Positions 429-21,498 of a DNA stretch of 48,937 nucleotides are shown one piece after another. Position 1 is the stretch's first letter. Each line of letters opens with the position of its first letter. This DNA comes from Lishizhenia tianjinensis. Its GTDB lineage: Bacteria > Bacteroidota > Bacteroidia > Flavobacteriales_D > Crocinitomicaceae. The position numbers and the translations under genes are program-made. The stretch spans positions 1-48,937 of the forward strand of contig CALQIX020000026.1 of the NCBI GenBank assembly GCA_943330745.2. Direction: 5' to 3'. The notes beneath the pieces were generated by a model that ran no database searches, was not told where the DNA came from, and saw nothing but the letters and a program-made list of their open reading frames with translations.

Positions 429-557
429 AAACGGTTTCGCGCTTGGCGTTCGGGCTGGTTTTATAGCTATAAACGCAAACACGAAGATTGATTTTTCTAA
501 TTTACTTTTTCTTTTCTTTCGAAGAAAGATCTCAGCCTGACGCTAAGGGCGTGTTAT
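429..557 (-). repeat. attC-like site a
   Basis: Starts with AACGG and ends with GTTAT, with long imperfect arms (CGCGCTTGGCGTTCGGGCTG against CAGCCTGACGCTAAGGGCGT) and a CTTTCGAAGAAAG hairpin between. It is nearly the same sequence as site o (11518-11642). It separates the HigBA cassette from the TPR cassette. Confidence 0.75.
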
Positions 558-562
558 CTGCA

Positions 563-1288
563 TCATTTCTTACATTTCTTTTCATTCAAAATGAAGAAAG
601 CACCATCTTCGATACCTAATTCAATTGCCTTTTTACAGTCTGAACAATTTTCTTCTTGGTTTTGCAAATAGTTGTTCATTCTACATCTGTTATAATAAGC
701 ACTAGCATAGTTTGGGTCAAGGTTTATCACTTTTGAATACTGCTCTCTTGCTTGTTGGTATTTCTTCTGATTTTCATAATAAAGGCCCAAAACGTTTATA
801 ACCTCTATATTATTTGAATCTAAATCCATTGCATAGTTAAGAGTTTTTAGTGCTTGGTCGTATTTTTTCAATTTGCATTCAATCCATGCTTTACTAGACA
901 ATACCGACAAATTGTTTGGGTCACTATTGAGGTATTTTTCATAGTATGATAATGAATATTCAAAATTTGCAAGTCGATCATGCACTGTGGCTAGCATTCT
1001 CAAATTTACTAAGGCACTATCATTAAGGGATTCAGCTTTTTCAAGATAAATTAACGAACGATCTAAGTCCTTGGAATCATAATATGAAACACCCTTAAAA
1101 TAATAACCTAAAAAATTCAAGGAATCTTTTTCTATTGCTTTTTCCGCATAATAAATTGCTCTTTCAGTATTCCCTTGTTTCAAATAATTAGAGGCTTGTG
1201 TTATATAAAAATCGTAAAGTTGACCGAAGGATATATTCGCAAATCCTATTAGAAAAAAGGCAGTTAATAATTTAATCGTGTGTTTCAT
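563..1288 (-). CDS. Secreted tetratricopeptide-repeat protein
   Basis: A 241-residue protein with a signal peptide (MKHTIKLLTAFFLIGFANISFG) followed by about five TPR units over residues 27-215 (YYAEKAIEKD, YLEKAESLND, ALKTLNYAMDLDSNN, YSKVINLDPNYASAYYN) and a Cys-containing tail. TPRs are protein-binding scaffolds, and the partner is unknown. Cassette gene: the start is 20 bases from the GTT core of site b and the stop 7 bases from the core of site a. The cassette ends carry a perfect 10-bp inverted repeat (GTTATCTGCA / TGCAGATAAC). No own promoter is visible. Confidence 0.85.
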   Translation of the reverse strand: MKHTIKLLTAFFLIGFANISFGQLYDFYITQASNYLKQGNTERAIYYAEKAIEKDSLNFLGYYFKGVSYYDSKDLDRSLIYLEKAESLNDSALVNLRMLATVHDRLANFEYSLSYYEKYLNSDPNNLSVLSSKAWIECKLKKYDQALKTLNYAMDLDSNNIEVINVLGLYYENQKKYQQAREQYSKVINLDPNYASAYYNRCRMNNYLQNQEENCSDCKKAIELGIEDGAFFILNEKKCKK

Positions 1289-1308
1289 TTTGTTCTTCTA
1301 TTGCAGAT

Positions 1309-1456
1309 AACGGCAGCGGGCTTGGCGCCGTGCCGACTTTTTAAATAAATTGTTATTCCGAAGTTAGATTTTTTCATTCAATTTAATCATTGTTTAGCTG
1401 CGTTTCTTACTTCGTCGGGCGAAGTAAGATTGAAGGGTTGTCACTAGACAGCTGTT
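1309..1456 (-). repeat. attC-like site b
   Basis: AACGGCAGC...GCTGTT. Belongs to the same subfamily as sites s and u: GCCGACT(C)TTTAAATAAAT at one side, GGTTG...ACAGCTGTTAT at the other, with CGAAGTTAG in the middle. Confidence 0.75.
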
Positions 1457-1916
1457 ATGCATCGTTCATTTTTCGTTTAACCAATCTGTATAATATGTAG
1501 GATTCAATCAATAATAATCCCCATATGAACCATTTAAATATGTTGTAAAGGAATTCATCATAATAGTCGTCTATTCGAAATAATGGATAATAGTTTTCGT
1601 CTCCTTCCGAAATGCTTTCTTTTCCGATTACTTGGCCAGTAACAATATATTGATGAACTCCCATGGGATCATATGAAGTGCTGATTCCATCTTCAAAATA
1701 AATTTCAGAATAATTCAAATCATATCTTTTCAAACTATCTGGAGTAATTGATCTCAAATACTTTTCTCCACTTATAACTTCAGCATCTGGGCAAGTACAA
1801 CTTATTCCTTTAACAACTATTTTATGTGAAAGAAATGGTAGATATTTTCTGAATAATACAACTTGCGTTATAATTATTATTGATCCGATTATTATTGTCA
1901 GTTGTCTTTTGGTCAT
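1455..1916 (-). CDS. Membrane-anchored cassette protein, CxCPD family
   Basis: A 153-residue protein with an N-terminal membrane segment (about residues 7-25) and a C-terminal one (about 125-145). Between them lies an exported domain with the motif SCTCPD at about residue 40, then VTGQVIGKES and a PLFRIDDYYD stretch. The same order of motifs occurs in the cassette protein at 14652-15167, so the two are probable paralogues. Function unknown. The stop codon TAA is part of the recombination core itself (GCATAAC). The leader from the other core is 17 bases. The cassette ends are GTTATGCATC / GATGCATAAC, a perfect 10-bp inverted repeat. Confidence 0.8.
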   Translation of the reverse strand: MTKRQLTIIIGSIIIITQVVLFRKYLPFLSHKIVVKGISCTCPDAEVISGEKYLRSITPDSLKRYDLNYSEIYFEDGISTSYDPMGVHQYIVTGQVIGKESISEGDENYYPLFRIDDYYDEFLYNIFKWFIWGLLLIESYILYRLVKRKMNDA

Positions 1917-1933
1917 GGTTGTCTATGATGCAT

Positions 1934-2001
1934 AACGGTTTCCAAATACGCAAAGACGCCTAACAAATATAGTACTTTCGCTCTTTTGCTTATTTGGTGT
2001 T
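1934..2001 (-). repeat. attC-like site c (short)
   Basis: A 68-bp AACGG...GTT site with arms TTTCCAAATACGCAAAG against CTTTCGCTCTTTTGCTTATTT-like sequence. It is the shortest clear site in the array. Confidence 0.65.
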
Positions 2002-2013
2002 ATAGCATGTACT

Positions 2014-2520
2014 TTATTCAAGTCGTTTTACTTTTTGTTCATTATTTTTTCTGTCCACAACGGTCCAAGGTCCATTGTAATAATTCACATTCGTATTAAT
2101 AGAAATGCGATTGTTTTTATCAAATTCATAAAGGACTAGTCTATCTCGATAATCATAAATAGATCCGCTCGTCTCTCTCATTTGTCTTAGGATTTTTGTC
2201 CCTGATTCATTTGTACATACTTCTAGATTGCACCAATTTCCATGAGGATTGCCAACAAAAATGTCATTCCACATAGCGCCAAGAACGAAGAGAAGCGAAA
2301 GAAATCCTAAAACTAAATAGTTTGTTATTCGAAGTCCTTTATGATTTAATTTTCCGACTTGTCTAAACAAAAAGTAAAGCAAGGTAAATATCAGGACAAA
2401 TGAAATTGAGCGAAAGATTGCTTCTGTCGTTGAATTTTCAATTTCAAATGGGATACCGGAATAGATAAAAACAAATAGCAAGAGGATTCCAAGTAATATT
2501 TTAAATAATGGTTTTGTCAT
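2014..2520 (-). CDS. Integral membrane protein of unknown function
   Basis: A 168-residue protein with three membrane segments in the first 90 residues (about 8-25, 35-52, 65-85) followed by a soluble tail of about 80 residues with two cysteines (WCNLEVC). I do not recognise the family. It is a single-gene cassette: start 14 bases from site d, stop 12 bases from the core of site c. The ends carry a 9-bp inverted repeat (GTTATAGCA / TGCTATAAC). Confidence 0.78.
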   Translation of the reverse strand: MTKPLFKILLGILLLFVFIYSGIPFEIENSTTEAIFRSISFVLIFTLLYFLFRQVGKLNHKGLRITNYLVLGFLSLLFVLGAMWNDIFVGNPHGNWCNLEVCTNESGTKILRQMRETSGSIYDYRDRLVLYEFDKNNRISINTNVNYYNGPWTVVDRKNNEQKVKRLE

Positions 2521-2534
2521 GGTCTATGTGCTAT

Positions 2535-2660
2535 AACGGTTCCACGCCTGGCGAAGGAGCCGATTTTCTAAATTATTTTAGTTTGCGATCCAAGATCGTT
2601 TTGTTTTCAAATATTCTTTTTTCGTAACTGAAATTACGGCTTTTTTTCTAGACGTGTGTT
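2535..2660 (-). repeat. attC-like site d
   Basis: AACGGTTCCACGCCTGGCGAAGGAGCCG at one end pairs with CGGCTTTTTTTCTAGACGTGTGTT at the other, with bulges. It resembles site w (24378-24525) in both arms. Confidence 0.78.
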
Positions 2661-2943
2661 ATAAGCATTTTCTTCGTTTTCTATTTAAAATGAAAATCAA
2701 TGAAATAGCTGATAATATTGATAGAAATAGCATTCCATTAGTGCGAAATGTGCGAATCATTAATAATGCAATAATGAGATTAACTATGTAAGTCAATACT
2801 AAATAAAACTTTTTTAAAGTGTTTTGACTGTTTACATAAAGGTTAGAGCCACGAATATTATATAATATTACCATTGGATAAACAATCAAAATTGTCAAAG
2901 CAAACATTATATACAAGAAAAAACCTTCGCCTAATCCAATCAT
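2659..2943 (-). CDS. Small three-helix membrane protein
   Basis: A 94-residue hydrophobic protein with about three membrane segments (residues 8-27, 44-61, 68-86) and a basic end (NRKRRKCL). Function unknown. The stop codon TAA lies in the recombination core (TTATAAC). The cassette ends form a perfect 10-bp inverted repeat (GTTATAAGCA / TGCTTATAAC). The leader is longer than most (72 bases to repeat B1). Confidence 0.65.
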   Translation of the reverse strand: MIGLGEGFFLYIMFALTILIVYPMVILYNIRGSNLYVNSQNTLKKFYLVLTYIVNLIIALLMIRTFRTNGMLFLSILSAISLIFILNRKRRKCL

Positions 2944-3015
2944 TTTATTTAGTCATTTTTCATTTTTAACTATAACTATTAAATAGACACTTCGAGTTAC
3001 TCTGGAGTTGCTTAT

Positions 3016-3234
3016 AACTTGTTGCTAACCGCCACAGACCTTCTCAAAGCATACCAATTTAGATGCAAAAGCGAAAGTTCATTGCGCTTAACGAATATAC
3101 AACTAAACTACATAAAGTTATGAATATCAGATGCATTTATTGGAAGTAAATAAGACCTAGGCGATTGCTATCACGTTAAATAGACACAGAAATCTGTTGG
3201 CCTTAGTATTTTTAATCTATTCTTAGAGCTGTCC
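3016..3234 (-). repeat. 220-bp dispersed repeat, copy B1
   Basis: Nearly identical to 7918-8138, 10053-10272 and 12209-12427. It begins AACTTGTTGCTAACCGCCAC and ends CTGTCC. Inside are a hairpin CCAATTTAGATGCA / TGCATTTATTGG and a nested AAGCG...CGCTT. No open frame is convincing. Confidence 0.8.
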
Positions 3235-3358
3235 GTCGTTTTGGCGCTTGGCGAAAGTAGGGATTTTGGAAAACCAAATTTTCAACCAGCACGAATTTAC
3301 AATAGAAGCACAAACTTCCAATTAACCACGTTAGCCCCTGTTGCGCCAAATATGTGTA
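3235..3358 (-). repeat. Degenerate attC-like site f
   Basis: Directly follows repeat B1. Arms TTGGCGC (about 3239) and GCGCCAA (about 3341) and a GGCGCTTGGCG start resemble other sites, but the AAC and GTT cores are eroded. Sites 3235-3395 hold no gene that I can support. Confidence 0.45.
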
Positions 3359-3395
3359 AGAACCAGTTTTTCTTTTCTTGTCGGTTGTCATTGAT

Positions 3396-3881
3396 TTATT
3401 TGCCAAGCAAGTCAAGTATTAAGCTGTAACCACTTTTATCATCAAAGGTTAATGTCTCTCCGTTTAAAACAATGGTATAAAATGTTCTAGTGCCAGCAAA
3501 CCAAATTTGGTCACCAACAATGTTTTTATCATTAAAGTCTTTTCCAAATTTGTTCAGTTTAGTTAATTGAAGCCCACTCAGAGTAAAAACTGTGTCGATT
3601 TGTTTGTCTGCGGAATAGTTTGATTTTAGAACAGAATGAATTTTTACAATACTGTCTTGATGATAAACAACATTGATTTCTTTCCTATCGTATCGTTCTG
3701 CACCGTGTGAAACTTTGATAACTAAAAAGTCATTCCATTTTAGTTGTTCAATTAAGGACTTGTCGATTGATTTTGTCTGTGCAATGGTCGTTGTACTGCA
3801 TATAGTCAACAAAGTTAGTGACAGTCCGATTCTAATTATCCCAATCATTCCTTGTCGTGTATGTTTTAACTTTGTAGTCAT
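3396..3881 (-). CDS. Secreted protein of unknown function
   Basis: A 161-residue protein with a signal peptide (hydrophobic stretch at about residues 12-33, ending STTTIAQ), then an exported domain of about 125 residues with alternating strands (FLVIKVSHG, VNVVYHQDS-like region, GTRTFYTIVLNGETLTF). Family not recognised. Cassette gene with a short leader (about 14 bases) after site g. Confidence 0.75.
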   Translation of the reverse strand: MTTKLKHTRQGMIGIIRIGLSLTLLTICSTTTIAQTKSIDKSLIEQLKWNDFLVIKVSHGAERYDRKEINVVYHQDSIVKIHSVLKSNYSADKQIDTVFTLSGLQLTKLNKFGKDFNDKNIVGDQIWFAGTRTFYTIVLNGETLTFDDKSGYSLILDLLGK

Positions 3882-3895
3882 TTAATATGGTATTT

Positions 3896-4024
3896 AAGGG
3901 TTTACAGATTGGCGAAGGTGGCGATTTTCACCACACCGCGCAGCAGCCACGAAGTGAAATGTGTATGCGGAGCTCTGAACCGCCACTTTTGCCAATTGAA
4001 AATCAGCGAAGCTAAAACAGTGTT
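3896..4024 (-). repeat. attC-like site g
   Basis: Almost identical to site h (6003-6131) through the middle (CGCGCAGCAGCCACGAAGTG, CGGAGCTCTGAACCGCCACT). The left AAC core is mutated to AAG. It ends AGTGTTAGCAACTG. Confidence 0.7.
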
Positions 4025-4040
4025 AGCAACTGTATTTTTT

Positions 4041-5432
4041 CTATTTAGCTTCAAATTCTTTCCATTTATCATTCTGACCATTAAGCCAATCGTAGTAATA
4101 TTCAAGTATTATTGCTGACATTGAATCAGGGTGGTCAATTCCTTTCTTTATCAGGTATTGTTGAAGTCTGGAACCACCCCAAAGTCCCCAATTATTCCTT
4201 AGCCAAGTTCCAAATCCGTGATGATACAAAATTGTTTCATTTCGATCTTTAAGGTTTTTGATTGCTTCAACGTCTTTTGGTTTCAAAAGTTTGTTAAGTT
4301 CTATGAAACATTCTTCAAGATTTTTCGGAATGTATAGACCATTAAGTGAGTCTGCCACAATTCGTTTTTTATATGCCACCCTTTCTTCTACAATTTTCTT
4401 CTCTTTTTCTCCTTTCGCTTCTTTTTTGCTTTTATTCATAAATTGAACCCAGCCCGAAAATCTCCATTTTTCTACCTCTTTAGGGATTGAGGCAACCTCA
4501 AATTTATTCGATTTTATAAATGCATTTATTTTGTCTTCTGGAAGTTCTCTATAGTCATCTGTCTTATCAAGTGATGCGTTCCCAAGAGTGTCAACAAGTA
4601 TTTCTATGTACAAAGAATGTCGCTTGTACTTGTAGGAATTCCTTTTATCCTCGGGAAAAACTGCCATAGAAATATACTCTGCTAAACTCTTTTCAAAAGA
4701 TTTTCCATTGGATAAATTAGGCAAACCGTATAAAAATGAAGGTTTGAATTTCTCAGATTTAATTTTGACAGGAGTAATTTGTTTAAACCATTTTTCATCA
4801 GCTTCTGCGAATGGCGAAATTGAAAAGTTGGTAGAATTAAGGTCAATCATAATTAGTTTTCCTGTCTTAGCAAAAATATAGAGGGTGTCATTATTACAGA
4901 AAGCTGCTCTATCTGTAAGTTGCTTCTCGAAATCGGTAGCGTTCTCTTTAAATCTAATATCCCTTTTACCATTTTCCCAACTTATACTATCTATCGCATC
5001 TTTGTAAAACAAAAAACAGTCTTCATTGTCAGCGTTACAATTTATAAAGTCTGTCAATGCATACTTCTTGAAAGAAACCCCATTTTTGAAAATTTCAACA
5101 CAATTATTTTGAATTCCGTCCCACTTATATTCTCTGTCGATTACATAAGCAACGGTATTGCCGTCATTGCTAATAAAAAGATCTTTTCTATTCTCAATTA
5201 CCTCAAAATATCTTGGAATTTCTGAGACCTTTAAATTGTGAGAATCAAACACAACTGTATTGCCTGTTGTTGTTTCTCCAATATTGTCAAAAGGGATAGT
5301 CTGCAAGAAAAATTTATCATTCTGAGAGTATACAGTGTGAATATAGCACATTGAATACGTTGTCTGTCCGATAACCTTTCCGATGCTTATGAGCCATATA
5401 AAAAGAGGCAATATTTTGATTTGTGGCGTCAT
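4041..5432 (-). CDS. Secreted protein with C-terminal DUF6794-like domain
   Basis: A 463-residue protein with a signal peptide (ends GKVIGQ). Residues about 25-230 look like a beta-rich reporter or propeller region. The C-terminal 85 residues (from LYIPKNLEECFIELNKLL, including HHGFGTWLRNNWGLWGGSRL and HPDSMSAIILEYYYDWLNG) resemble the DUF6794 family; this is from memory, not a search. Its ATG overlaps the TGA of the decayed gene 5429-5975 (ATGA), so the two were probably a translationally coupled pair in one cassette. The cassette ends do not match each other (GTTAGCAACTG against CACATAAC), unlike most cassettes here. Confidence 0.75.
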   Translation of the reverse strand: MTPQIKILPLFIWLISIGKVIGQTTYSMCYIHTVYSQNDKFFLQTIPFDNIGETTTGNTVVFDSHNLKVSEIPRYFEVIENRKDLFISNDGNTVAYVIDREYKWDGIQNNCVEIFKNGVSFKKYALTDFINCNADNEDCFLFYKDAIDSISWENGKRDIRFKENATDFEKQLTDRAAFCNNDTLYIFAKTGKLIMIDLNSTNFSISPFAEADEKWFKQITPVKIKSEKFKPSFLYGLPNLSNGKSFEKSLAEYISMAVFPEDKRNSYKYKRHSLYIEILVDTLGNASLDKTDDYRELPEDKINAFIKSNKFEVASIPKEVEKWRFSGWVQFMNKSKKEAKGEKEKKIVEERVAYKKRIVADSLNGLYIPKNLEECFIELNKLLKPKDVEAIKNLKDRNETILYHHGFGTWLRNNWGLWGGSRLQQYLIKKGIDHPDSMSAIILEYYYDWLNGQNDKWKEFEAK

Positions 5433-5975: not shown

Positions 5976-6002
5976 CAATTTAGTGTGGTTGTCATTACAC
6001 AT

Positions 6003-6131
6003 AACGGTTTCGAGCTTTGCGAAGGTGGCAATTTTCACCACACCGCGCAGCAGCCACGAAGTGAAATGTTGATGCGGAGCTCTGAACCGCCACTTTTGCC
6101 AATTGAAAATCAGAGAAGCTAAACGCCAGTT
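6003..6131 (-). repeat. attC-like site h
   Basis: AACGGTTTCGAGCTTTGCGAAGGTGGC pairs with GCCACTTTTGCC...GAAGCTAAACGCCAGTT. The middle is nearly identical to site g. Confidence 0.78.
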
Positions 6132-6783
6132 ATATGCCGTGTTTTTCAATTTGTCGATATGTATTAATCCTTTTTATTGCCGCTAAAAAAGTCACAAACG
6201 CTCCCAAAAATATTAAACAATTAGTATAATTAATGTCTTTATCAATAGCTGATTTTACAATAATGAAGATTGAAAATATTCCTGTCAATATGGCAATAAA
6301 ATTGGTTACAGAACTGTTCTGCTTTGATTGTTCCTTGTAATGAGTTATTGATTTGTCTAAATAGTTGTCGCCAAGAATGGAAGAAGCAATACTGTCAAAG
6401 TTTTCAAATTCAAAGTCGGATAATGAAACTTGATTTTTGCTTTTGTCTGTTATTGTCAGTGAAACAAACTTGTGTGCTTTAATCTCCCAAGTCGCCCATT
6501 TTGAAGTTGTTATTTCGTCTTTAAAAATTGTTGTCTTTTTAAGTCTAAACAAGTAAAGTGAAGTCAGTTTGTCTTTGGTTACAAATAGTAATCTTAATTT
6601 TATTAGAAGAAATATTATTGTTCCTAATGTCAGAATATAAACTAAAACAACGAAAAATTTAGCAATGAAAATTATGTCGGAGCTAACTATTTTGTCCCAT
6701 GTCATGTAGGTCAAAATGCTGCCACTACCTAGCATTAAAATAAACCATAAGGTTGTCAATATATTATAAATTCCAATTGTCAT
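6130..6783 (-). CDS. Membrane protein with central soluble domain
   Basis: A 217-residue protein with two N-terminal membrane segments (about residues 7-26 and 38-62), a soluble region of about 85 residues (KLRLLFVTKDKLTSLYLFRL onward, PH-like in pattern), and two C-terminal segments (about 160-180 and 186-203). Function unknown; the layout resembles small bacterial PH-domain membrane proteins (inference). The stop TAA lies within the recombination core (ATATAAC). The cassette ends are an 8-of-10 inverted repeat. Confidence 0.75.
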   Translation of the reverse strand: MTIGIYNILTTLWFILMLGSGSILTYMTWDKIVSSDIIFIAKFFVVLVYILTLGTIIFLLIKLRLLFVTKDKLTSLYLFRLKKTTIFKDEITTSKWATWEIKAHKFVSLTITDKSKNQVSLSDFEFENFDSIASSILGDNYLDKSITHYKEQSKQNSSVTNFIAILTGIFSIFIIVKSAIDKDINYTNCLIFLGAFVTFLAAIKRINTYRQIEKHGI

Positions 6784-6820
6784 TTTTTCATTGGTTTATG
6801 GTCGTCCTAATATGTCATTT

Positions 6821-6943
6821 AACGTTTGGGGCTTTGCGTTCGTGCGGGTTTCGGAGCACAAAGCTTCAATTTATTACTTAAGTTTATTAGAAGCACAAAA
6901 CTCTAATTTTGCACGTCACCCCGCCTGACGCAAAACCCGTGTT
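6821..6943 (-). repeat. attC-like site i
   Basis: AACGTTTGGGGCTTTGCGTTCGTGCGGGTTT pairs with CACCCCGCCTGACGCAAAACCCGTGTT, the longest clear arms in the array. An inner GAAGCACAAA...CTTCAATT stem is also present. Confidence 0.8.
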
Positions 6944-6954
6944 ATAAGCCGTTT

Positions 6955-7896: not shown

Positions 7897-7917
7897 GGTC
7901 TTTCTAAAATGGCTTAT

Positions 7918-8138
7918 AACTTGTTGCTAAACGCCACAAACCTTCATAAAGCATACCAATATAGATGCAAAAGCGAAAGTTCATTGCGCTTAACGAATAT
8001 ACAACTAAACTACATAAAGTTATGAATATCAGATGCATTTATTGGAAGTATATAAGACCTGGGCGATTGCTATCACGTTAAAAAGCACAGAAATCTGTTG
8101 GATGTAGTATTTTTAATCTATTCTTCGATCTGTCCATT
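7918..8138 (-). repeat. 220-bp dispersed repeat, copy B2
   Basis: Begins AACTTGTTGCTAAACGCCAC and ends GATCTGTCCAT. The hairpin CCAATATAGATGCA (7956-7969) pairs with TGCATTTATTGG (8034-8045). It lies upstream of the lipoprotein gene 6955-7896 and abuts site j. Confidence 0.82.
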
Positions 8139-8143
8139 GAGTT

Positions 8144-8258: not shown

Positions 8259-8270
8259 ATAGGGCATTTT

Positions 8271-8852: not shown

Positions 8853-8899
8853 TTACTTATTTTAATCGGTATGCATATCGTTATTTCAAAACTCCCTTT

Positions 8900-8986
8900 A
8901 ACGTTTTCGAGCTACAAGAAGTTAGCGATTTTGAAGCAAAAAACTTCATTTAACCACTGAACCGCCAATTTCTTGTAGCTGCTGTT
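8900..8986 (-). repeat. attC-like site k
   Basis: An 87-bp site. AACGTTTTCGAGCTACAAGAAGTTAGCG pairs with CGCCAATTTCTTGTAGCTGCTGTT, a very clear arm of 13 bp (AGCTACAAGAA / TTCTTGTAGCT core). Confidence 0.8.
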
Positions 8987-8997
8987 AGCAAACGTTT

Positions 8998-9453: not shown

Positions 9454-9475
9454 GATCTATCTTTAAATGTTTACT

Positions 9476-9599
9476 AACGGTTTGCCGCCTGGCGAAGAAG
9501 CGGATTTCGAAGCATAAAACTATCTGCCAGCACTGAACTTGATATGAAGCACAAAGCTTCATTTAAGCACTGAAGCCGCTTTTTTGCCAAACGCCTGTT
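9476..9599 (-). repeat. attC-like site l
   Basis: AACGGTTTGCCGCCTGGCGAAGAAGCGG pairs with CCGCTTTTTTGCCAAACGCCTGTT. The middle GAAGCACAAAGCTTCATT is shared with site m. Confidence 0.8.
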
Positions 9600-9615
9600 A
9601 GCAACTGCTTTTCTC

Positions 9616-10030: not shown

Positions 10031-10052
10031 ATGGTTCTTCAAAGTTGTTGCT

Positions 10053-10272
10053 AACTTGTTGCTAACCGCCACAAACCTTCATAAAGCATACCAATAAAGA
10101 TGCAAAAGCGAAAGTTCATTGCGCTTAACGAATATACAACTAAACTACATAAAGTTATGAATATCAGATGCATTTATTGAAAAAAAAGGCATATGCAATT
10201 GCTATCACATTAAACAAGCTCAGAAATCTGTTGGATATAGTATTTTTTAATTAATTCTTCGATCTGTCCATT
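10053..10272 (-). repeat. 220-bp dispersed repeat, copy B3
   Basis: Begins AACTTGTTGCTAACCGCCAC and ends CTGTCCAT, directly abutting the AACGG core of site m. Like B2, but with a poly-A stretch (AAAAAAAGGCAT) in place of GGAAGTA. Confidence 0.82.
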
Positions 10273-10418
10273 AACGGTTTCACGCCTAGAGAATAAGCGG
10301 ATTTCGAAGCACACCGCGAATTAGCACCGAAGGTAAAACTGTCTGCCAGAACTGAACTTGGAACGAAGCACAAAGCTTCATTCAATTACTGAACCCGTTT
10401 TTTTGCCAAACGCCTGTT
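10273..10418 (-). repeat. attC-like site m
   Basis: AACGGTTTCACGCCTAGAGAATAAGCGG pairs loosely with CCGTTTTTTTGCCAAACGCCTGTT. The middle is shared with site l, with an extra insert holding a GCGAATTAGCACCGAAGG segment. The stretch 10031-10462 holds only repeat B3, this site and a short leader. Confidence 0.75.
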
Positions 10419-10462
10419 AGCGGCTGGGCTTCTGTCTGTGGATTTTGTAGTTTTCATATTTG

Positions 10463-10974
10463 TCAGCACCAGTTTTTAATCTGTTCAAGTTGAGTTGTTT
10501 GCTCGTTAGTCAGTCCTTTTAATGTAATGTCCGTTTTATAATGCTTGTGTTTCGGAGCGGTCAGTTTAATATCTACTTCTCCTTTTACAATTTGATTAAA
10601 AGTTATTCGGTCTGGTTTGTAAGTATCAAGATAGTTAAAGTTGTCTTTTGTTGATTCTATGTCTGAAGTCAGTAAAATGGGAGTAAAAAAACTTTGAAAA
10701 CAAAATCTTGTCTGCGAACAACTGCAAGGTAGTTGTCAAATAAATAAAGGTCGCAACGATTATTTGGATAGATATATGTTTTTAGTCCGCTGGTTTCAGA
10801 GTAACGAAGTTTTATGTTTTGGAAAACGGTCGGTCTCAAGCCGCTTGCCTGTCCAATAAATTTATCTATTACTGTCTGTGACCGCTTGTTGTAAAAAGTC
10901 AGAAAGATGTAAAGGCCCACCAAAACGATGAAAATGAAAATTGCGAAGAATGTCGAGATACTTACTATGGGCAT
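10463..10974 (-). pseudogene. Single-helix membrane protein gene with a frameshift
   Basis: ATG 10974 gives one membrane segment (about residues 5-27) and a soluble part to QDFVFKVF. As written, it stops at 10669 (LLPFY). Adding one base to a T7 run restores a continuous frame, TPILLTSDIESTKDNFNYLD, ITFNQIVKGEVDIKLTAPKH and TLKGLTNEQTTQLEQIKNWC, to TGA at 10463. Restored length is about 170 residues. Function unknown. The change in a homopolymer could be a real mutation or an assembly error. Confidence 0.72.
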
Positions 10975-11047
10975 TTTATTGTCTCTGGTTTTGTGTCAAT
11001 TTTTGTCTGTCATATAATTTGTCGATTGGTCGTCATGCCTTTCCGTT

Positions 11048-11119
11048 AAAGGTTTGCGGCTATGCTTAGTGCCGACTCTCGAATGTAGTGAATTTTCTGC
11101 ATAATGCATAGGTGGTGTT
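11048..11119 (-). repeat. attC-like site n (short)
   Basis: AAAGGTTTGCGGCTATGCTTAG...ATAATGCATAGGTGGTGTT, 72 bp. One core is AAA instead of AAC; CTATGC pairs with GCATAG. Confidence 0.62.
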
Positions 11120-11130
11120 ATAGTGACTAA

Positions 11131-11493: not shown

Positions 11494-11517
11494 TTTACAC
11501 AATTGTTTATTCACTAT

Positions 11518-11642
11518 AACGGTTCCGCGCTTGGCGTACGGGCTGATTTCAGCCCATAAACTCAAACACGAAGATTGATTTTTCTACTTTACATTTTCTT
11601 TTCTTTCGAAGAAAGATCTCAGTCTGACGCTAAGGGCGTGTT
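11518..11642 (-). repeat. attC-like site o
   Basis: Nearly the same sequence as site a (429-557), although 11 kb away and next to unrelated genes: CACGAAGATTGATTTTTCTA, TTCTTTCGAAGAAAGATCTC and GACGCTAAGGGCGTGTTA are shared. Confidence 0.8.
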
Positions 11643-12197
11643 AAAAGCATTTTTATTTAACCATTTTTTCAATCTCCATCCAAATAGTAGATGAGAAATG
11701 AAAGTAGGCGTATTTAATTTGAAACCATCCTGAATAAAAGTGTAATAGATTTGCGAGCCCTTTAAAATTAAAACTGCGGTTCGCCCGTATTTACCTTCCA
11801 AATGAGGTTTATCGAGGATTATACAGTCGTCTTCGTTTCTTTTCTTTCTTCTGATGACGAACTCTTCATTTTTAGCAAATTCTTGAATTAGTTGCTCATT
11901 TAGAATGTAAGTATTATTTGTCTCAATTTTTTTCAATCTTAATTGCGTGAACATTCGGATTGTCATATAAATCCCATTAAATACAACTAGCGGCAGCATG
12001 TAATATCCAACAAATCGCTCATTCACATTTTCAAAATCTAATTCGTAGAAAAAAATCAAATAGGGGCAAATTACAAACCCAAAAATTTGGGCAAACGGAT
12101 AGAAAATCAAATCAAGGTATTCCAGAAAATCTTTTGAATAAATTAATCTCTTCCTTGACAAACTCTTTTCTACGTCTATGTTTTTGAGGGATAACAT
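11619..12197 (-). CDS. Membrane protein whose end is encoded by an attC-like site
   Basis: A 192-residue protein with two membrane segments (about residues 32-52 and 66-86) and a soluble tail with a basic cluster (IRRKKRNEDDCIILDKPHLEG). Family unknown. The reading frame crosses the recombination core: the Asn codon AAC is the core, and the last six residues TPLASD lie in site o. The cassette ends are 9-of-10 inverted repeats (GTTAAAAGCA / TGCTTATAAC). The leader is only 11 bases. Confidence 0.75.
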   Translation of the reverse strand: MLSLKNIDVEKSLSRKRLIYSKDFLEYLDLIFYPFAQIFGFVICPYLIFFYELDFENVNERFVGYYMLPLVVFNGIYMTIRMFTQLRLKKIETNNTYILNEQLIQEFAKNEEFVIRRKKRNEDDCIILDKPHLEGKYGRTAVLILKGSQIYYTFIQDGFKLNTPTFISHLLFGWRLKKWLNKNAFNTPLASD

Positions 12198-12208
12198 CTA
12201 TTGCTTAT

Positions 12209-12427
12209 AACTCGTTTATAACCGCCACATAACTTCACAAAGCATACCAATATAGATGCAAAAGCGAAAGTTCATTGCGCTTAACGAATATACAACTAAA
12301 CTACATAAAGTTATGAATATCAAATGCATTTATTGAAAAAAAAGGCATCGGCAATTACTGTCACGTTAAAAGGCATAGAAATCTGTTGGATGTAGTATTT
12401 TTAATCTATTCTTAGATCTGTCCATAG
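12209..12427 (-). repeat. 220-bp dispersed repeat, copy B4
   Basis: Begins AACTCGTTTATAACCGCCAC and ends TAGATCTGTCCAT. It overlaps the 3' end of the LRR gene 12401-13000. Together with 12198-12208 it fills the gap between the flanking genes. Confidence 0.8.
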
Positions 12428-13000: not shown

Positions 13001-13002
13001 GG

Positions 13003-13150
13003 TATTACGCCCAATATTCCTAGGCTTTGTGAAAGAGTAGATTTTTAAATTTTGTTTCATCTAGCAGAAGGTAATGCATCATAGTAAGTTCCAATGTCAT
13101 TTTTTGTTATCAAATAGTTGGATCTTTTACCAATCCCTCTTACCAACCAT
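13003..13150 (-). other. Probable eroded attC-like site
   Basis: No gene here. CCTAGGCTTTGTGAAAGAG and GATTTTTAAAT at 13018-13050 resemble the start of other sites. The segment ends TTACCAACCAT (13140-13150), which is exactly inverted at 14568-14578 (ATGGTTGGTAA), marking the ends of the next cassette. Confidence 0.4.
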
Positions 13151-13163
13151 CTTTTTTCTATTG

Positions 13164-14549
13164 TTAATGTTTTGACTTTATACTATTTGAAAAACTACCT
13201 GAACTGTCTTTGCTATTGTAATTTATCTGAACATGAAAATGCTTGTTTTTAGCAAATTTTTTAGTTCGAACAACAAAAGTGTTTATTCCCTTTTTTGCTT
13301 TTGTCTTTACGTTTCCATGTGCTTTGTTCGTTTCACTTTCTTGAATATTGATTTCAATCTCGGCGGCGTCCACAAAATAGACCTTAACTTCAAGTTCGTT
13401 TTTACTTTTAATTAGTATATCTCTGATGTTATTTTTATCTGTGATGTATGTTCTTTCTCGCTTCTTGCCCTTTTCAACTCCTTTAATTTTTGTGTAGGTA
13501 ATTACTCCTTGAACATTACCAAATTCAACGAAAGGCATTGGAAAGAAAGGTAAAATATAATTTCTGTAAGGATCGCTTTTGGCTTGAACGATTTTTTGGT
13601 ACGTGTTACCGTTAACTGTATCGAACGTAACCCCTTGAAGAAATAGGTCCTTCCCAGTTTCTGTTTCAACAATTTTCAATTCAGTTTTGAATTCTTTGTA
13701 TGGCACGAATTGATAACCTACAAAATAACCGCTATCCGTAACGGTTACAAAAAATTCTTCTGGACTGTCATAGGAGCCACTTAAATAATTGTATCCGTCC
13801 ACTTCGAATTTCATTGTTTTTTTATCATTCACCATGGTATCGCCTAAATATTTAAAATTCTTGAATTGCTTATCGCTATACTCGGCAAGATTGGTTGTGT
13901 CGTCATACCATTTCCTGCGATAAAACAATTGAATTTCGTCACCCTTTTGTATGTCAAATCTCGTGGAGGCTTTATAATTGTTTAGTAGTCCGTTTGATAT
14001 TTCATTGTAATTGTCTCCCAATAATTGCTTAGTATAAAACTCACCATTACTAGAAACAACCAATGATTTCAATGCTGGTATAATTATAAGATAGATTTCA
14101 GAATTGTCTTTGTGATAGTACTTTCTTGGTCTATAAAATGAAGGTTCAATACTGTCTTGCGTGCCCAAAAATTCAAGAAGGATAGTTGTTTGTTTGCCGA
14201 AGATGATTGCTGTTTGCTCTTCGTTAATTTGGTAGTTGATTTTATGAACTACTTTTTTGTTGTTATCAAGCATGCAATAAACGTCATTCGTAAAAGTTTC
14301 ATAGAATGTTTTTGTTTCTTGCTTAGCTGAATAATCTATAAAGTCTGCTGTTTGAAACTTGCGAAATTTTACGCTGTCAATAATTGTATCGCTTATGTCA
14401 GTCCGTGTTTGCAGTCCGATATATTCGTTTTTATCGTCAAAGTAGATTGCTCGAATATAAATTTTAGAGTTCGCTAGTTCAATTCTACTGTTTTGACCAA
14501 AAGCAAGGTAACAGAATAAAAGAGTCAAAAGTGTTAAAATCTGTTTCAT
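13164..14549 (-). CDS. Large secreted protein of unknown function
   Basis: A 461-residue protein with a signal peptide (MKQILTLLTLLFCYLAFG), then a beta-rich exported region with no membrane anchor. The C-terminal 80 residues (ELEVKVYFVDAAEIEINIQE, KKGINTFVVRT, HFHVQINYNSKDSSGSFSNS) look like a beta-sandwich of the kind used as an adhesion or sorting module, but no T9SS motif is clear. It is the longest intact-looking cassette gene after 4041-5432. The ends carry an 11-bp perfect inverted repeat in which both cores have changed together (TTACCAACCAT / ATGGTTGGTAA). Confidence 0.75.
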   Translation of the reverse strand: MKQILTLLTLLFCYLAFGQNSRIELANSKIYIRAIYFDDKNEYIGLQTRTDISDTIIDSVKFRKFQTADFIDYSAKQETKTFYETFTNDVYCMLDNNKKVVHKINYQINEEQTAIIFGKQTTILLEFLGTQDSIEPSFYRPRKYYHKDNSEIYLIIIPALKSLVVSSNGEFYTKQLLGDNYNEISNGLLNNYKASTRFDIQKGDEIQLFYRRKWYDDTTNLAEYSDKQFKNFKYLGDTMVNDKKTMKFEVDGYNYLSGSYDSPEEFFVTVTDSGYFVGYQFVPYKEFKTELKIVETETGKDLFLQGVTFDTVNGNTYQKIVQAKSDPYRNYILPFFPMPFVEFGNVQGVITYTKIKGVEKGKKRERTYITDKNNIRDILIKSKNELEVKVYFVDAAEIEINIQESETNKAHGNVKTKAKKGINTFVVRTKKFAKNKHFHVQINYNSKDSSGSFSNSIKSKH

Positions 14550-14576
14550 TGTGTCTTATGTTTTATTATGGTTGGT

Positions 14577-14670
14577 AAAGGTTTGGTCTGGCCGAAGTGA
14601 AGAATTTTCTGTACTAGACTTCATCAGGTGCAAAAAGCTCGATTGAACCACTTAACCGCCACTTTTATCG
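14577..14670 (-). repeat. Eroded attC-like site q
   Basis: AAAGGTTTGGTCTGGCCGAAGTGAAG at one side and GAACCACTTAACCGCCACTT at the other resemble sites k and h. The outer right arm and core are missing, so the next gene runs into the site. Confidence 0.5.
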
Positions 14671-15167
14671 ATTTCCCATACCAATGAAATAATAGACAAA
14701 ACGATAAGTACAAACCCAAAATAAAAATAAAAACACATCCAATGATAAGGAAGTTCCATGAATTTAAAATGAAATTCAGTTGGATGCCAACTTTCTATTT
14801 CCACAATAGGTCGTGCAGAAATTTGATTTTTTGGATTGGCTAGCGAGGAATCAATTCCGATTACTTTACCTATAATTATAAATTCATTATTCCCCTTTTT
14901 TAAATCCCATTGAAGCCCATTTAGTTTATGATCTTTTTCCAGGGTAATCTCGAATACGTTTTCAGTTAATTTTGACTTATATTTTTCGGGTATCAGTAGT
15001 TTTCCTTCTTTTAGATAAAAGTCAGGACATTCCGTACATTCCGGGCTGTAAATTAAAATCTCATCCTTGCTTTGAATTTTTTCCTGTGGTAATTTATAGG
15101 GCATAAATCCCAGTGTAAAATAGATCACAGTTAGTATCCACGGAATATTTCGAATTTTGTTTTTCAT
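14652..15167 (-). CDS. Membrane-anchored cassette protein, CxxCPD family
   Basis: A 171-residue protein with an N-terminal membrane segment (about 8-24), an exported domain starting SPECTECPDFYLKEGKLLIP, then IIIGKVIGIDSS, PIVEIESWHP, and a C-terminal membrane segment (about 142-163). The order CxxCPD, GxVIG, P-x-[VF]-x-I, membrane helix matches the protein at 1455-1916, so I treat them as paralogues. Function unknown. The last residues (DKSGG) and the stop are read from site q. Confidence 0.77.
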   Translation of the reverse strand: MKNKIRNIPWILTVIYFTLGFMPYKLPQEKIQSKDEILIYSPECTECPDFYLKEGKLLIPEKYKSKLTENVFEITLEKDHKLNGLQWDLKKGNNEFIIIGKVIGIDSSLANPKNQISARPIVEIESWHPTEFHFKFMELPYHWMCFYFYFGFVLIVLSIISLVWEIDKSGG

Positions 15168-15233
15168 TTTCGTTGAACATTTCTCTTTACCAAAATAGAC
15201 GTCTGATTAAATAAGTTGGCTTTGTTGGTAGAT

Positions 15234-15281
15234 AACGACTGATGCAAACTCCATATTATACGGTCAACCATCTTTTCTGTT
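15234..15281 (-). repeat. Possible minimal attC-like site r
   Basis: A 48-bp AACGACTGATG...CTGTT stretch between two cassette genes. Cores are present, but the arms are weak. Confidence 0.3.
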
Positions 15282-15283
15282 AC

Positions 15284-15802
15284 TTATTTGTCGAGAGGTT
15301 TCCATTTTCCTTTTTTGAAATAAACGTTATTAAATTTTGGGGATTGAAATACTAAATAAAAACTCCAAGCCCCTCTGTAAGTGGTCGGATTACTTGTCAA
15401 AATATGGTGAGTTGGTTGTTCCATTTTTAGTTTCAGTCGTTCCGAACTATATCGTTTAGTCGTTGTAATTGTACCACGATAAGTTTTTACTATTTTTTCT
15501 TTGTCAGTAAGGTAAAAGTAAATTGAGTCGTTTTCTTTAATTTCAAATCTGAAGTTATTGTATTGCCAGTCCGATTGACTGCCGTGGAAATAGTCACGAT
15601 TCACAATGTATTCTCCATAATAATCTTCTTTGTCAAGTACTTTCTGGTCTGTCAAAAGTTTAATTACAACTCCAAGACAAAAAAGTCCAAACAAACCAAG
15701 CCAGAAATATCCCAGAATTTTTCCAACTATTTTTTTCCTAGTAATTGCCCATATTACTATTAGAATAATTGTCAGTGGAAAAATAATAAGTATTAAAAAC
15801 AT
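15284..15802 (-). CDS. Two-helix membrane protein with exported domain
   Basis: A 172-residue protein with two membrane segments (about residues 2-20 and 28-48) around a basic loop (TRKKIVGK), then an exported domain (YYGEYIVNRDYFHGSQSDWQ, NNFRFEIKENDSIYFYLTDK, GAWSFYLVF, ending KPLDK), lipocalin-like in style. The layout resembles 8271-8852. Function unknown. The cassette ends share only GTTAC/GTAAC. Confidence 0.75.
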   Translation of the reverse strand: MFLILIIFPLTIILIVIWAITRKKIVGKILGYFWLGLFGLFCLGVVIKLLTDQKVLDKEDYYGEYIVNRDYFHGSQSDWQYNNFRFEIKENDSIYFYLTDKEKIVKTYRGTITTTKRYSSERLKLKMEQPTHHILTSNPTTYRGAWSFYLVFQSPKFNNVYFKKGKWKPLDK

Positions 15803-15855
15803 ACTGATGTCATGTTAATTCTATGGTCGTGTTGTAACGTCATAAGCTGCCGCCT

Positions 15856-15979
15856 AACGTTTTGCCATCAAGCGCTCGGCCGACTCTTTAAATAAATTAA
15901 TTTATAAATGTACGAATAGTTTGTTTTAAATTTAACGTTCAACGAAATATGAATTTTGGGCTGGTGCCGGACAGCTGTT
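15856..15979 (-). repeat. attC-like site s
   Basis: AACGTTTTGCCATCAAGCGCTCGGCCGACT pairs loosely with GGGCTGGTGCCGGACAGCTGTT. Same subfamily as sites b and u. Confidence 0.75.
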
Positions 15980-15983
15980 ATGC

Positions 15984-16533
15984 TCAGTATTTTTTTATCA
16001 AAGTTATTGTATCTATTATTTTTTCTGTTGTCCACGCTAAACTGTCATCAGGATTTCTTTCAATTATTTCAATTCTAATTGTGTCTGGTATTTCATTAAG
16101 TAAGAAAACGAACTCTTGGGGATCTGTCAGGGTGTTCGACATATTCATTCAGTTTTAAAGGTTTAAAAGGGATTAATCGGAATTTATGCAAATCATTTTC
16201 TGTGAGCCTATTAAAGTAGATACTTAGTATGTTTTTATAATCCGCTTCAGCCCAATAAATTTCCTTGTTATTTATATTTTTTTCGATCCAAATTTCAGAC
16301 AATTCAATTGAATCAGTTTTGTCAGAGGAGAAATATTTTTCAGAATCAGAAAAATATGTTCCAATCCAAACTTTATCTTTTTTTGCTTCTTTAATAGAAA
16401 TTGAAGAATGATATGGTCCATTTGGTTTTCCTTCTAATACCACTTGCCACCAATTTGAAATTAGAATTACCGCAATAATAATTGTCAAAAGAACAATTGC
16501 TATAATCAAACTGTTTTTCTGTCCTTTATTCAT
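15984..16533 (-). pseudogene. Single-helix membrane protein gene with a frameshift
   Basis: ATG 16533 (MNKGQKNSLIIAIVLLTIII) starts a one-helix protein with an exported domain (KDKVWIGTYFSDSEKYFSSD, FNRLTENDLHKFRLIPFKPL). As written, it ends at 16096 (PRVRFLT). Removing one G near 16140 gives NTLTDPQEFVFLLNEIPDTI, RIEIIERNPDDSLAWTTEKI and ITLIKKY, with TGA at 15984, four bases from the site s core. Restored length is about 182 residues. Upstream in-frame codons to 16650 lie in site t and are rejected. A separate overlapping 52-codon gene from ATG 16141 is a less likely alternative. Confidence 0.7.
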
Positions 16534-16564
16534 TGTAATTGTTTGGTTTTGCAATATTGAGCAC

Positions 16565-16686
16565 AACGTTTCGCGCATAGACCTTGTGGCGGCGAAGCGA
16601 GCTGAGTTGTCTCGGCTAAGATAATGTTTTTCGTAAAAAATAGAGTTCAAGCAACTGAAAACCAGCCATAAGTTCTATGCGCTGTT
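16565..16686 (-). repeat. attC-like site t
   Basis: AACGTTTCGCGCATAGACCTTGTGGC pairs with GCCATAAGTTCTATGCGCTGTT: GCGCATAGA / TCTATGCGC is perfect. Confidence 0.8.
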
Positions 16687-16697
16687 ATATGACGTAG

Positions 16698-17198
16698 CTA
16701 TTCAATTTTCCAGTTATCCAATACCAGAGTTATAATAGAATGTGGCCACATTTCAAAGTTTTCCAAGTCAGGTTGAATTGGAATTATGGAGGTCCTTTTC
16801 CATTGTTGGCTGGTAGGAGTAAACATAAGTGCTTTATAAGTAAGCTTCTTGTTAAAAGGATTTTTAACATGTAAATCTGTGCGGATATCTTTTCTGTTTT
16901 CTGAATCTTGAGTAAAATCAATAGCGATCGTTTTTTCGGGATTGATGATTTTCTCAACGACTTTCATTTTACTTATTGAATCACCTTGAATTTCACATTC
17001 CACAAAAATCTTTTCTCCGCAATATATTTGAAGAATTTTTTCTTTTACAAAATATGGACTTTCTTGTACATCCATTGCATATTGTTGAGTTTCATTAGCT
17101 GCAATTTCCAATCTGTATGCGCTTCTTTTGGGCTTTTCGTTTTGAGAATATAAAGCCAAGCTAAATATTGAAAATACGATAATGATAAATGTTTTCAT
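16698..17198 (-). CDS. Secreted protein of unknown function
   Basis: A 166-residue protein with a signal peptide (MKTFIIIVFSIFSLALYS), then a beta-rich exported domain (ILQIYCGEKIFVECEIQGDS, LTYKALMFTP, IITLVLDNWKIE). Family not recognised. It is a single-gene cassette with the longest end repeat in the window: GTTATATGACGTAGCT against AGCTATGTCATATAAC, 15 of 16 matching. Confidence 0.76.
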   Translation of the reverse strand: MKTFIIIVFSIFSLALYSQNEKPKRSAYRLEIAANETQQYAMDVQESPYFVKEKILQIYCGEKIFVECEIQGDSISKMKVVEKIINPEKTIAIDFTQDSENRKDIRTDLHVKNPFNKKLTYKALMFTPTSQQWKRTSIIPIQPDLENFEMWPHSIITLVLDNWKIE

Positions 17199-17234
17199 GT
17201 TCTAATTTTATACGGTTCTTAAGCTATGTCATAT

Positions 17235-17361
17235 AACGTTTTGCTGCCTGGCGAGTGGCTCGACTCTTTAAATAAATCATTTTTTCGAAGTTAGAAATAT
17301 TTTCTTTTAAATTTTTCGTTTTTTCGAAGCGAGATTGGAGGGTTGGTGCTTGACAGCTGTT
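17235..17361 (-). repeat. attC-like site u
   Basis: AACGTTTTGCTGCCTGGCGAGTGGCTCGACT...GGTTGGTGCTTGACAGCTGTT. Same subfamily as sites b and s. Confidence 0.78.
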
Positions 17362-17884
17362 ATAGGTATTCCTTTTTCAATTCTTTTGAATCGAGTATAA
17401 ATCCTATTGCCAACAAAATAAGAGCAATTAAACTTAGCACCAACATCGGACCAGCATAAGGCCAATGCTGAGTTTTAAAAATAACATGGGCAATTGTAAT
17501 TAACATCCCAATCAATTGTGGGAAGTTAGCGCGTTCTGATTTAGGCTTTTTCCTAATGATATCCCAAACTTCTAAAGCTAACCAAGTGCTACCTGAAACT
17601 TCAAGAATGATTCGAACATATACCAAATTATTCATTTTGTAAATCGCAAATACACTTAAGAGTACCCATGATAAAACCATAATAGCTTTTGCCGAATCCT
17701 TGATGTTTTTTGATTTCTTAAACCCGTATCTTATAGCATATAATACCCCAATTGCTATCAAGCTTGTTAGCTTTAGCTCAAAACCAAATGGCCAGTGCAT
17801 TATTTTAAAAATCGAACCAATTGCCAAAACGCAAAGGGCAATAGCTATAGGAGTACTTAATATTTTTTTTTGGTTGTTGGTCAT
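17360..17884 (-). CDS. Multi-helix membrane protein with two HWP motifs
   Basis: A 174-residue protein with about five membrane segments. The motif FKIMHWPFG (about residue 26) recurs as FKTQHWPYAG (about residue 137), so the protein looks like an internal duplication of a two-helix unit. FKxxHWP-type helices also occur in GldL-like gliding/T9SS proteins; a relation is a guess. It is the first cassette in the reading direction of the array, and its leader is only 10 bases. The stop TAA lies in the recombination core (CTATAAC). The end repeat is GTTATAGGTA / TACCTATAAC. Confidence 0.75.
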   Translation of the reverse strand: MTNNQKKILSTPIAIALCVLAIGSIFKIMHWPFGFELKLTSLIAIGVLYAIRYGFKKSKNIKDSAKAIMVLSWVLLSVFAIYKMNNLVYVRIILEVSGSTWLALEVWDIIRKKPKSERANFPQLIGMLITIAHVIFKTQHWPYAGPMLVLSLIALILLAIGFILDSKELKKEYL

Positions 17885-17894
17885 TATTACCTAT

Positions 17895-18019
17895 AACGGT
17901 TTGCAGCTACCCGCAGGTGCAGCTTTTATAATTTTCTAATATTCGAATGTAGGAATTAGTTTGATTCCATGAAATGATTTCTACGAAGAAAGATTCTGCG
18001 CTTGTGGGTAGGTGCTGTT
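17895..18019 (-). repeat. attC-like site v, promoter-proximal end of the array
   Basis: AACGGTTTGCAGCTACCCGCAGGTGC pairs with TGCGCTTGTGGGTAGGTGCTGTT: CTACCC / GGGTAG plus flanks. It is the last site on the right. Beyond GTTATGAGAGGG the DNA has no matching partner, so this is the position where an integron attI would be expected. Confidence 0.75.
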
Positions 18020-21470: not shown

Positions 21471-21498
21471 ATTTAATTAATCAAATAAAAAAACTAAA

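Follow-up and report, generated by a model that had tools for sequence, protein, structure and literature searches.

The contig of Lishizhenia tianjinensis (Crocinitomicaceae, Bacteroidota) considered here carries, on its minus strand, a long run of small genes with hairpin-forming sites between them, and raises the question of whether Bacteroidota possess gene-cassette arrays of the integron type and, if so, which recombinase builds them. The window analysed is the whole of contig C26 (48,937 bp), from a 3.06-Mb genome assembly (54 contigs, 99.94% complete); an Rfam scan of the window returned a tRNA as its sole match. Judging from sequence, the window very probably holds the cassette array of a Bacteroidota class of integrons, in which a dedicated tyrosine recombinase devoid of the I2 insertion is the likely integrase and is predicted to join the sites to an attI-like hairpin ending in AAGTTA. 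The first-pass annotation of this DNA had proposed an integron-like cassette system or a variant of the integron attC site, either of which consensus-based tools could miss, a proposal which gains support from the arrays, the adjoining recombinase and the cassette-like content described below.

For the detection of the sites, 16 minus-strand examples were chosen by eye and aligned on sequence alone. A two-helix structure laid on this alignment paired 85% of the cells, vs. 23-38% once the partners were slid, and double-sided changes were found in 31 cells against 13.0 in shuffled alignments (none of 500 reached 31) and 6-12 with slid partners. The covariance model built from these 16 training sites (R1) recovered 18 sites in the window at an expect value (E) ≤3.5e-8, all of them on the minus strand and between 430 and 24529, namely the training sites plus two new ones (Table 1); across the whole genome, 32 sites were found at E ≤ 1. 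A naive scan for arm complementarity was set aside, its matches being mostly due to chance. The small minus-strand genes separated by hairpins that had been pointed out in the window are thus confirmed, and the estimates of about 22 cassettes and about 19 sites were close, with 18 strong sites and one weak site detected, while three decayed-looking places (around 15.27, 14.65 and 8.2 kb) were not recovered by the model. The range originally assigned, 429..18019, does contain an array but is too short: attI-like copies reach 25.06 kb, and the array runs from there down to position 1 and then into contig C49 (80-bp identical end overlap), which joins contig C11 via an identical 120-bp end overlap; the last R1 site on C11 ends at 9.5 kb. 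The total across the three contigs, which depends on these identical overlaps of contig ends, is about 40 kb counted from 25.06 kb, or about 33 kb from the start given at first.

The anatomy of the sites was derived from an alignment of 100 sites (A4), of which 83 have both cores readable and 74 are distinct; L-stem pairing was assessed on the 66 with enough bases past the core, bulges on 75 that were not deduplicated, and the R' heptamer on 89. The consensus over 66-75 sites from many genomes reads YTAAC-A-GSVGTTWGGC ... GCCAAGCNSC-AAACC-GTTA. Broadly, an R stem is followed by a single unpaired base (A, 96%) opposite five (AAACC), then by a 10-bp L stem (in register in 66/74 sites) and by an inner stem that is 80% paired. 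Watson-Crick pairing in the L stem amounts to 78%, vs. no more than 56% with shuffled partners. A bulge-tolerant pairing script gave 56 of the 75 sites as bulge-free and a 1/5 spacer in 58 of the 75, whereas the same script assigned a 5/6 spacer and two bulges on the R''-L'' arm to both class-1 attC controls, in agreement with the 2-3 extrahelical bases on that arm and the 5-nt spacer given for attC in a passage of the literature (PMC2727003). AAC/GTT cores are present in most sites, and the R' core is GTTA in 82 of the 89 readable cases and GTTRRRY in six. The core of GTTA rather than GTTRRRY stated at the outset holds, and the comparison of bulges proposed there shows a pattern unlike that of known attC sites.

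The sites are widespread in the phylum. At E ≤ 0.01, R1 matched 23 of 40 relatives (the window's own genome counted); order-wide, under stricter filters and with 13 candidates scored per genome, it matched 103/249 genomes in 34/64 genera at E ≤ 1e-4. An exact 22-base pattern, itself part of R1's consensus, occurs in 44 stretches among 84,980 species genomes, and 40 of these stretches have an R1 match at E ≤ 0.01. Bacteroidota titles head 35 of the 40, including Flavobacterium, Pedobacter, Olivibacter, Algoriphagus, Hymenobacter, Sediminibacterium, Saprospiraceae and Crocinitomicaceae; the other five come from metagenome-assembled genomes (MAGs), namely two of Chlorobi, one deltaproteobacterial and one of Limnohabitans, the last contributing two contigs, and these MAG records outside Bacteroidota are possibly binning errors. 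On a Chryseobacterium plasmid, the one R1 match (28.5 bits) is preceded on the same strand, at a distance of about 13 kb, by a member of the recombinase family treated below; a class-1 integron gave none at E ≤ 10. The covariance search proposed at the outset shows that the sites occur in arrays in many Bacteroidota, and that a good part of them adjoin a same-strand tyrosine recombinase. For two records titled Chitinophaga pinensis (L073) and Chryseobacterium gleum (L084), the positions and scores of the recombinase matches coincide with those of two genomes of the window's order (G242 and G173, respectively), and the deposited titles may be wrong.

The association with a recombinase was quantified from 122 recombinase matches listed at 250 bits or more in 107 genomes and from 143 sites, the window's own genome being left out; the sites include four additions (G009:C70, G033:C2 and two of G026), on which the counted contigs G009:C70 and G026:C1 rest. 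Among these matches, 18 recombinase-site pairs lie within 12 kb of each other, on 14 contigs. The recombinase of G090 (L199) was dropped as an array integrase, as an IS91-type transposase follows it (Pfam Zn_Tnp_IS91), and so was the IS91-associated one of G018 (L116); among the recombinases inspected beside sites, only these two are followed directly by such a transposase. Without G090, 17 pairs on 13 contigs are left, and in 14 of them, on 12 contigs, the sites lie downstream of the recombinase and on its strand. Furthermore, eight named strains with a recombinase match already seen were picked from 35 site-bearing genomes (records found by the pattern that have an R1 match and a Bacteroidota title). 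In six of them (UKL13-3, O. sitiensis, F. franklandianum, P. glucosidilyticus, A. boritolerans and F. muglaense), same-strand sites are found within 5 kb downstream of the recombinase; the nearest listed downstream site lies 36 kb off in S. salmoneum, and H. rubripertinctus has none on the same contig. The single-contig genome G126 shows the layout at length, with 26 sites (E ≤ 0.1) over about 110 of the 140 kb examined, all on the recombinase strand together with 101 of 114 open reading frames (ORFs) of at least 70 residues.

Other features of these loci were also observed. At E ≤ 0.001, the one complete chromosome of UKL13-3 (G298, CP012155.1) yields 40 sites, and several loci on it combine a recombinase with an array. 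An IS91-like transposase with its own tyrosine recombinase recurs near arrays (L199 9574-11621, L116 784-2831, L135 16948-18890), and the long-branch recombinase of L200 (G231:C12) is directed away from its array, as is usual in classical integrons. In the window's genus, small genes starting with MEL- stand just upstream of the recombinase (L191, L192, L114, L121), the one at L191 10566-11078 having an ORF6N domain.

The recombinase itself is not a canonical IntI. The family profile of the latter (TIGR02249) has no match above its cut-off in the window's genome, across the order (249 genomes) or among 39 genomes with sites, and the same profile, as a positive control, matches 84/296 genomes of the phylum, 83 belonging to other classes. 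When the 44 pattern-found loci were searched for recombinase motifs, a recombinase was found at one only, L065. A 376-residue tyrosine recombinase (P0001), situated 0.7 kb upstream of a site, barely exceeds the NF040815 cut-off (224.3 vs. 220 bits) and fails TIGR02249, reaching 197 of 265 bits in two pieces. When aligned with the IntI4 structure (2a3v), 23 of the recombinase residues stand opposite 66, and a stretch of about 41-43 residues is absent relative to IntI; from its position in the alignment, this stretch would be the I2 helix. The distance between two catalytic motifs, readable in 31/38 array, 7/17 IntI and 5/6 Xer rows, is 58-59 residues in array recombinases vs. 100 in IntI and 62-66 in Xer. 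On the other hand, a C-terminal SP(F/I/L/V)D motif is common to the relatives of the recombinase and IntI. The predicted structure (mean predicted local distance difference test score, pLDDT, 81.5; predicted template modelling score, pTM, 0.50) has its best matches in XerA (5hxy) and IntI4, in a comparison covering mainly residues 90-359.

A phylogenetic tree was calculated after removing 9 of 70 extracted rows (duplicates and bad extractions); L101, L208, L217 and L219 gave no row, and B_L199 was kept in. IntI (100/100) and Xer (100/98) each fall on one side of a branch, all 38 array rows lie outside both, and 30 of the 38 form a single group (97/91). In the genomes searched, XerD-level genes are separate, weaker profile matches, and the array recombinases are additional to them. 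Many recombinases (residues 1-73 of P0001 and relatives) begin with an additional domain of about 80 residues, predicted as b-b-a-b-b-a-b and without clear Pfam match, which is lacking in 279-residue members from the window's genus. A HARP-like identity for this domain found no Pfam support and was rejected, one weak DUF5710 match (E 0.09) being the only one in eight proteins.

Downstream of the recombinase stop codon, an inverted repeat ending in TATAA..AAGTTA is often found. In 18 of 30 loci its core lies 93-105 nt past the stop; as many of these loci come from the window's genus, they are not independent. Six of the 30 contigs break off no more than 150 nt from the stop, four of them 0-2 nt after the GTT, as expected if the sampled population has different cassettes there. 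The window contains six attI-like copies homologous to congeneric attI elements, namely four repeats of about 210 bp and two further copies (Table 1). The 210-bp repeat also occurs in L125 (3270-3482) and L126 (3356-3484), its last 110 bp or so being attI-like, and several possible entry points therefore stand within the window array, some of them right after an attC. The upstream half of the 210-bp repeats was considered as a relic of a recombinase 3' end; it yielded suggestive reading frames only, and the relic is not claimed.

Regarding content, a Pfam match was obtained for six of the 20 cassette ORFs scanned, and 14 have no known family. The first 18.1 kb were compared with 61 congeneric genomes (own included), scoring at most four candidate stretches per genome, and the matches listed are single cassettes or sites only; the outcome named at first as contrary to a cassette array, a gene order kept in related strains, was thus not seen among the matches listed in the 60 other genomes. 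One such cassette body, 10414-11055, recurs in G099 with 1.5-kb flanks on both sides that match nothing in the window. Site-only matches between genomes are 73-98% identical and lie beside unrelated genes. A 4383-bp cassette is shared with the congeneric genome G090: on the attC side, homology ends right after AAACCGTTAT and different cassettes come next; on the other side, it ends at AAGTTA, preceded by an attI-like copy in the window and by an IS91-like end in G090. Duplications are also found: G026 has one cassette as a tandem pair (98.7% over 847 bp), and the recombinase of L117 is followed by an exact repeat of 1394 bp. As side observations on the 4.4-kb cassette, its genes, which include a two-component system, are oriented opposite to the attC, and the IS91-like element of G090 abuts the attI core position.

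We propose that the recombinase likely captures and shuffles cassette genes as integrons do. It would act on the folded strand and cut at the GTT core, inserting cassettes at attI; in strand choice, the asymmetry of the 1/5-nt spacer, with A opposite AAACC, would take the place of extrahelical bases. A recombinase still acting on the folded strand, with polarity drawn from this spacer, is the most economical reading. The window array is an orphan array, with six attI-like copies and no recombinase of the family in its assembled genome; it could have been built by a recombinase since lost or working in trans, and the six copies may serve as additional entry points or be left over from arrays that fused. 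At the level of the phylum, Bacteroidota probably hold a second class of integrons, with folded hairpin sites, an integrase that never had (or has lost) I2, no extrahelical bases and a strand choice made by the asymmetric spacer.

Several results weigh against this interpretation. No recombinase of the array family was found in the window's assembled genome, whose best match to the recombinase profile is XerD-level; the recombinases examined there at first look were rejected as array integrases, being XerD- and XerC-like. Among the matches listed, 35 genomes hold both a recombinase (107 genomes) and a site (56), and most of them have no pair within 12 kb on one contig. Of the 35 pattern-found site-bearing genomes, eight lack a recombinase at E ≤ 1e-60, three of these being named strains (Flavobacterium sp. 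CF136, Olivibacter sp. XZL3 and Pedobacter frigidisoli), and the best match of one more reaches just 233 bits. The three remaining recombinase-site pairs, all on G231, have a divergent layout; the attI pattern is not at 93-105 nt in 12 of the 30 loci; and the array recombinases are not one clade, G124/G148 standing weakly beside IntI (92/81). At least one bulge is present in 19 of the 75 sites, nine of them on the R''-L'' arm, and R1, which contains no bulge, may favour bulge-free sites. As the left edge of the G090 cassette abuts an IS91-like element, the attC edge alone is clean evidence of site-specific exchange. Finally, recombination of the sites by the recombinase is itself a prediction from sequence.

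Four other explanations were weighed. The most serious is that recombination takes place on double-stranded DNA at the GTTA core, the hairpins having another role such as transcription termination; we hold this unlikely, since the covariation of the 10-bp arms, the presence of an inner stem and a spacer of fixed asymmetry that conserves AAACC point to recognition of a folded strand. A cluster of attC sites lacking integron-integrases (CALIN), derived from canonical integrons with IntI acting in trans, would share the overall layout, the AAC/GTT cores and the cassette behaviour; CALINs occur frequently, and passages of two papers include Bacteroidota among the taxa known to have integrons (PMC9668308; PMC8618304). 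Nonetheless, such an origin is highly improbable, because IntI passes its cut-off in none of the 249 genomes of the order vs. 84/296 in the phylum, extrahelical bases are mostly absent, R1 has no match in a class-1 integron, and many arrays adjoin a different recombinase.

The housekeeping XerC/XerD might instead recombine the sites, the neighbouring recombinase being incidental. XerD- and XerC-like proteins are indeed present in the window's genome, where the array recombinase was not found, but a dedicated recombinase stands directly upstream of arrays elsewhere and is followed by a shared element in 18/30 loci, which leaves this possibility a very small probability. Static intergenic repeats of the repetitive extragenic palindrome (REP) or miniature inverted-repeat transposable element (MITE) type within a stable gene cluster would fit the site-only matches with unrelated neighbours. 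Against them speak the lack of any multi-cassette run in the same order among the matches listed in the other congeneric genomes, the identical cassette with a switch to different neighbours precisely at the core, and the tandem cassette copies, so that their probability is next to nil.

Table 1. Features of the window (coordinates on contig C26; bits are R1 scores)
Feature	Position	Strand	Evidence or remark
attC-like site	430..559	-	R1, 87 bits
attC-like site	1307..1460	-	R1, 72 bits
attC-like site, short form	1931..2005	-	R1, 48 bits
attC-like site	2532..2664	-	R1, 109 bits
attC-like site, outside training set	3237..3362	-	R1, 41 bits
attC-like site	3893..4028	-	R1, 65 bits
attC-like site	6000..6135	-	R1, 72 bits
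attC-like site	6818..6947	-	R1, 76 bits
attC-like site	8897..8990	-	R1, 60 bits
attC-like site	9473..9603	-	R1, 93 bits
attC-like site	10270..10422	-	R1, 77 bits
attC-like site, short form	11046..11123	-	R1, 43 bits
attC-like site	11515..11646	-	R1, 93 bits
attC-like site	15853..15983	-	R1, 84 bits
attC-like site	16562..16690	-	R1, 58 bits
attC-like site	17232..17365	-	R1, 109 bits
attC-like site closing the 4.4-kb cassette	17892..18023	-	R1, 97 bits; G090 homology ends at its core
Weak short attC-like site	23854..23930	-	R1, 13 bits; 84% identity (71 bp) with a site on contig C47
attC-like site, beyond the range first annotated, outside training set	24375..24529	-	R1, 68 bits
4383-bp cassette, attC at 3' end	17893..22275	-	99.8% identical to G090:C9:122913-127295; GTT-core ends
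Response regulator (4383-bp cassette)	18344..19024	+	Pfam
Histidine kinase (4383-bp cassette)	18964..20283	+	Pfam
DUF2490 protein (4383-bp cassette)	20280..21038	+	Pfam
PepSY-like protein (4383-bp cassette)	21499..21966	+	Pfam
attI-like copy directly upstream of the 4.4-kb cassette	22271..22355	-	89% identity (85 bp) with the element that follows the G099 recombinase
attI-like copy at the array's upstream end	24976..25059	-	84% over 85 bp to the G099 element; gene 24490-24957 next
Repeat b1 (~210 bp), attI-like end	3010..3240	-	Core AAGTTATAAGC; matches G250 attI
Repeat b2 (~210 bp), attI-like end	7905..8140	-	Matches G250 attI
Repeat b3 (~210 bp), attI-like end	10052..10280	-	No separate attI match at E ≤ 1e-3
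Repeat b4 (~210 bp), attI-like end	12207..12414	-	No separate attI match at E ≤ 1e-3
Cassette ORF, HigB-like toxin (type II toxin-antitoxin)	47..328	-	Pfam PF05015; contig end within cassette, overlaps C49
Cassette ORF, TPR protein	563..1288	-	Pfam
Cassette ORF with DUF6794	4041..5432	-	Pfam
Single-cassette body	10414..11055	-	88% identical in G099, with a different attC there

The significance of the system lies mainly in what it implies for the I2 helix. According to passages of one paper, I2 docks the extrahelical bases of attC, blocks a harmful second strand exchange and is needed for cassette capture, and it is present only in integron integrases, intermediates being lacking (PMC7790495). 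Both partners of this contact are missing here, which suggests that hairpin-site recombination can work in another way; a widespread system without I2 and without extrahelical bases makes the I2 model directly testable and, if the interpretation is true, would be a natural counterpart of the intermediate said to be lacking in integron evolution. Surveys based on the IntI insertion and canonical attC may miss such a system: in the part of a 2022 survey that deals with them, Bacteroidetes proper are reported to have one complete integron, in Salinibacter ruber (PMC9024848), vs. sites in 103/249 genomes of a single order. intI genes have also been reported in the Bacteroidetes/Chlorobi group, as given in a passage of another work (PMC2426708). 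No description of a system like the present one was found in the open-licence literature, a search outside which subscription papers and preprints fall. As most of the scanned cassette genes have no known family, the arrays constitute an unread pool of likely mobile genes.

Compared with known systems, the window array resembles a CALIN in having no integrase in its assembled genome, and differs in that the arrays of its relatives carry a non-IntI recombinase and the sites depart from canonical attC. With XerA/XerC/XerD (NF040815, TIGR02224/5), the recombinase shares a score over the NF040815 cut-off and a resemblance to XerA 5hxy; unlike them, array recombinases adjoin cassette arrays, and many have the extra N-terminal domain. 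"Integron-like" simple tyrosine recombinases have been described, and for their insertion-less members the relevant passages give no cassette arrays or attC (PMC8138268). The differences from canonical integrons are a recombinase without the I2 insertion (motif distance 58-59 vs. 100), sites mostly without extrahelical bases, with a 1/5 rather than a 5/6 spacer and a GTTA rather than a GTTRRRY core, and a layout in which recombinase and array are co-directional on 12 of 13 contigs (G090 dropped). A divergent intI is the usual integron layout. Canonical integrons and the present system nevertheless have much in common: tandem, mostly single-gene cassettes on one strand, with variable content, imperfect hairpins that end in a GTT core, a predicted attI-like element next to the integrase gene (18/30 loci) and the SP(F/I/L/V)D motif.

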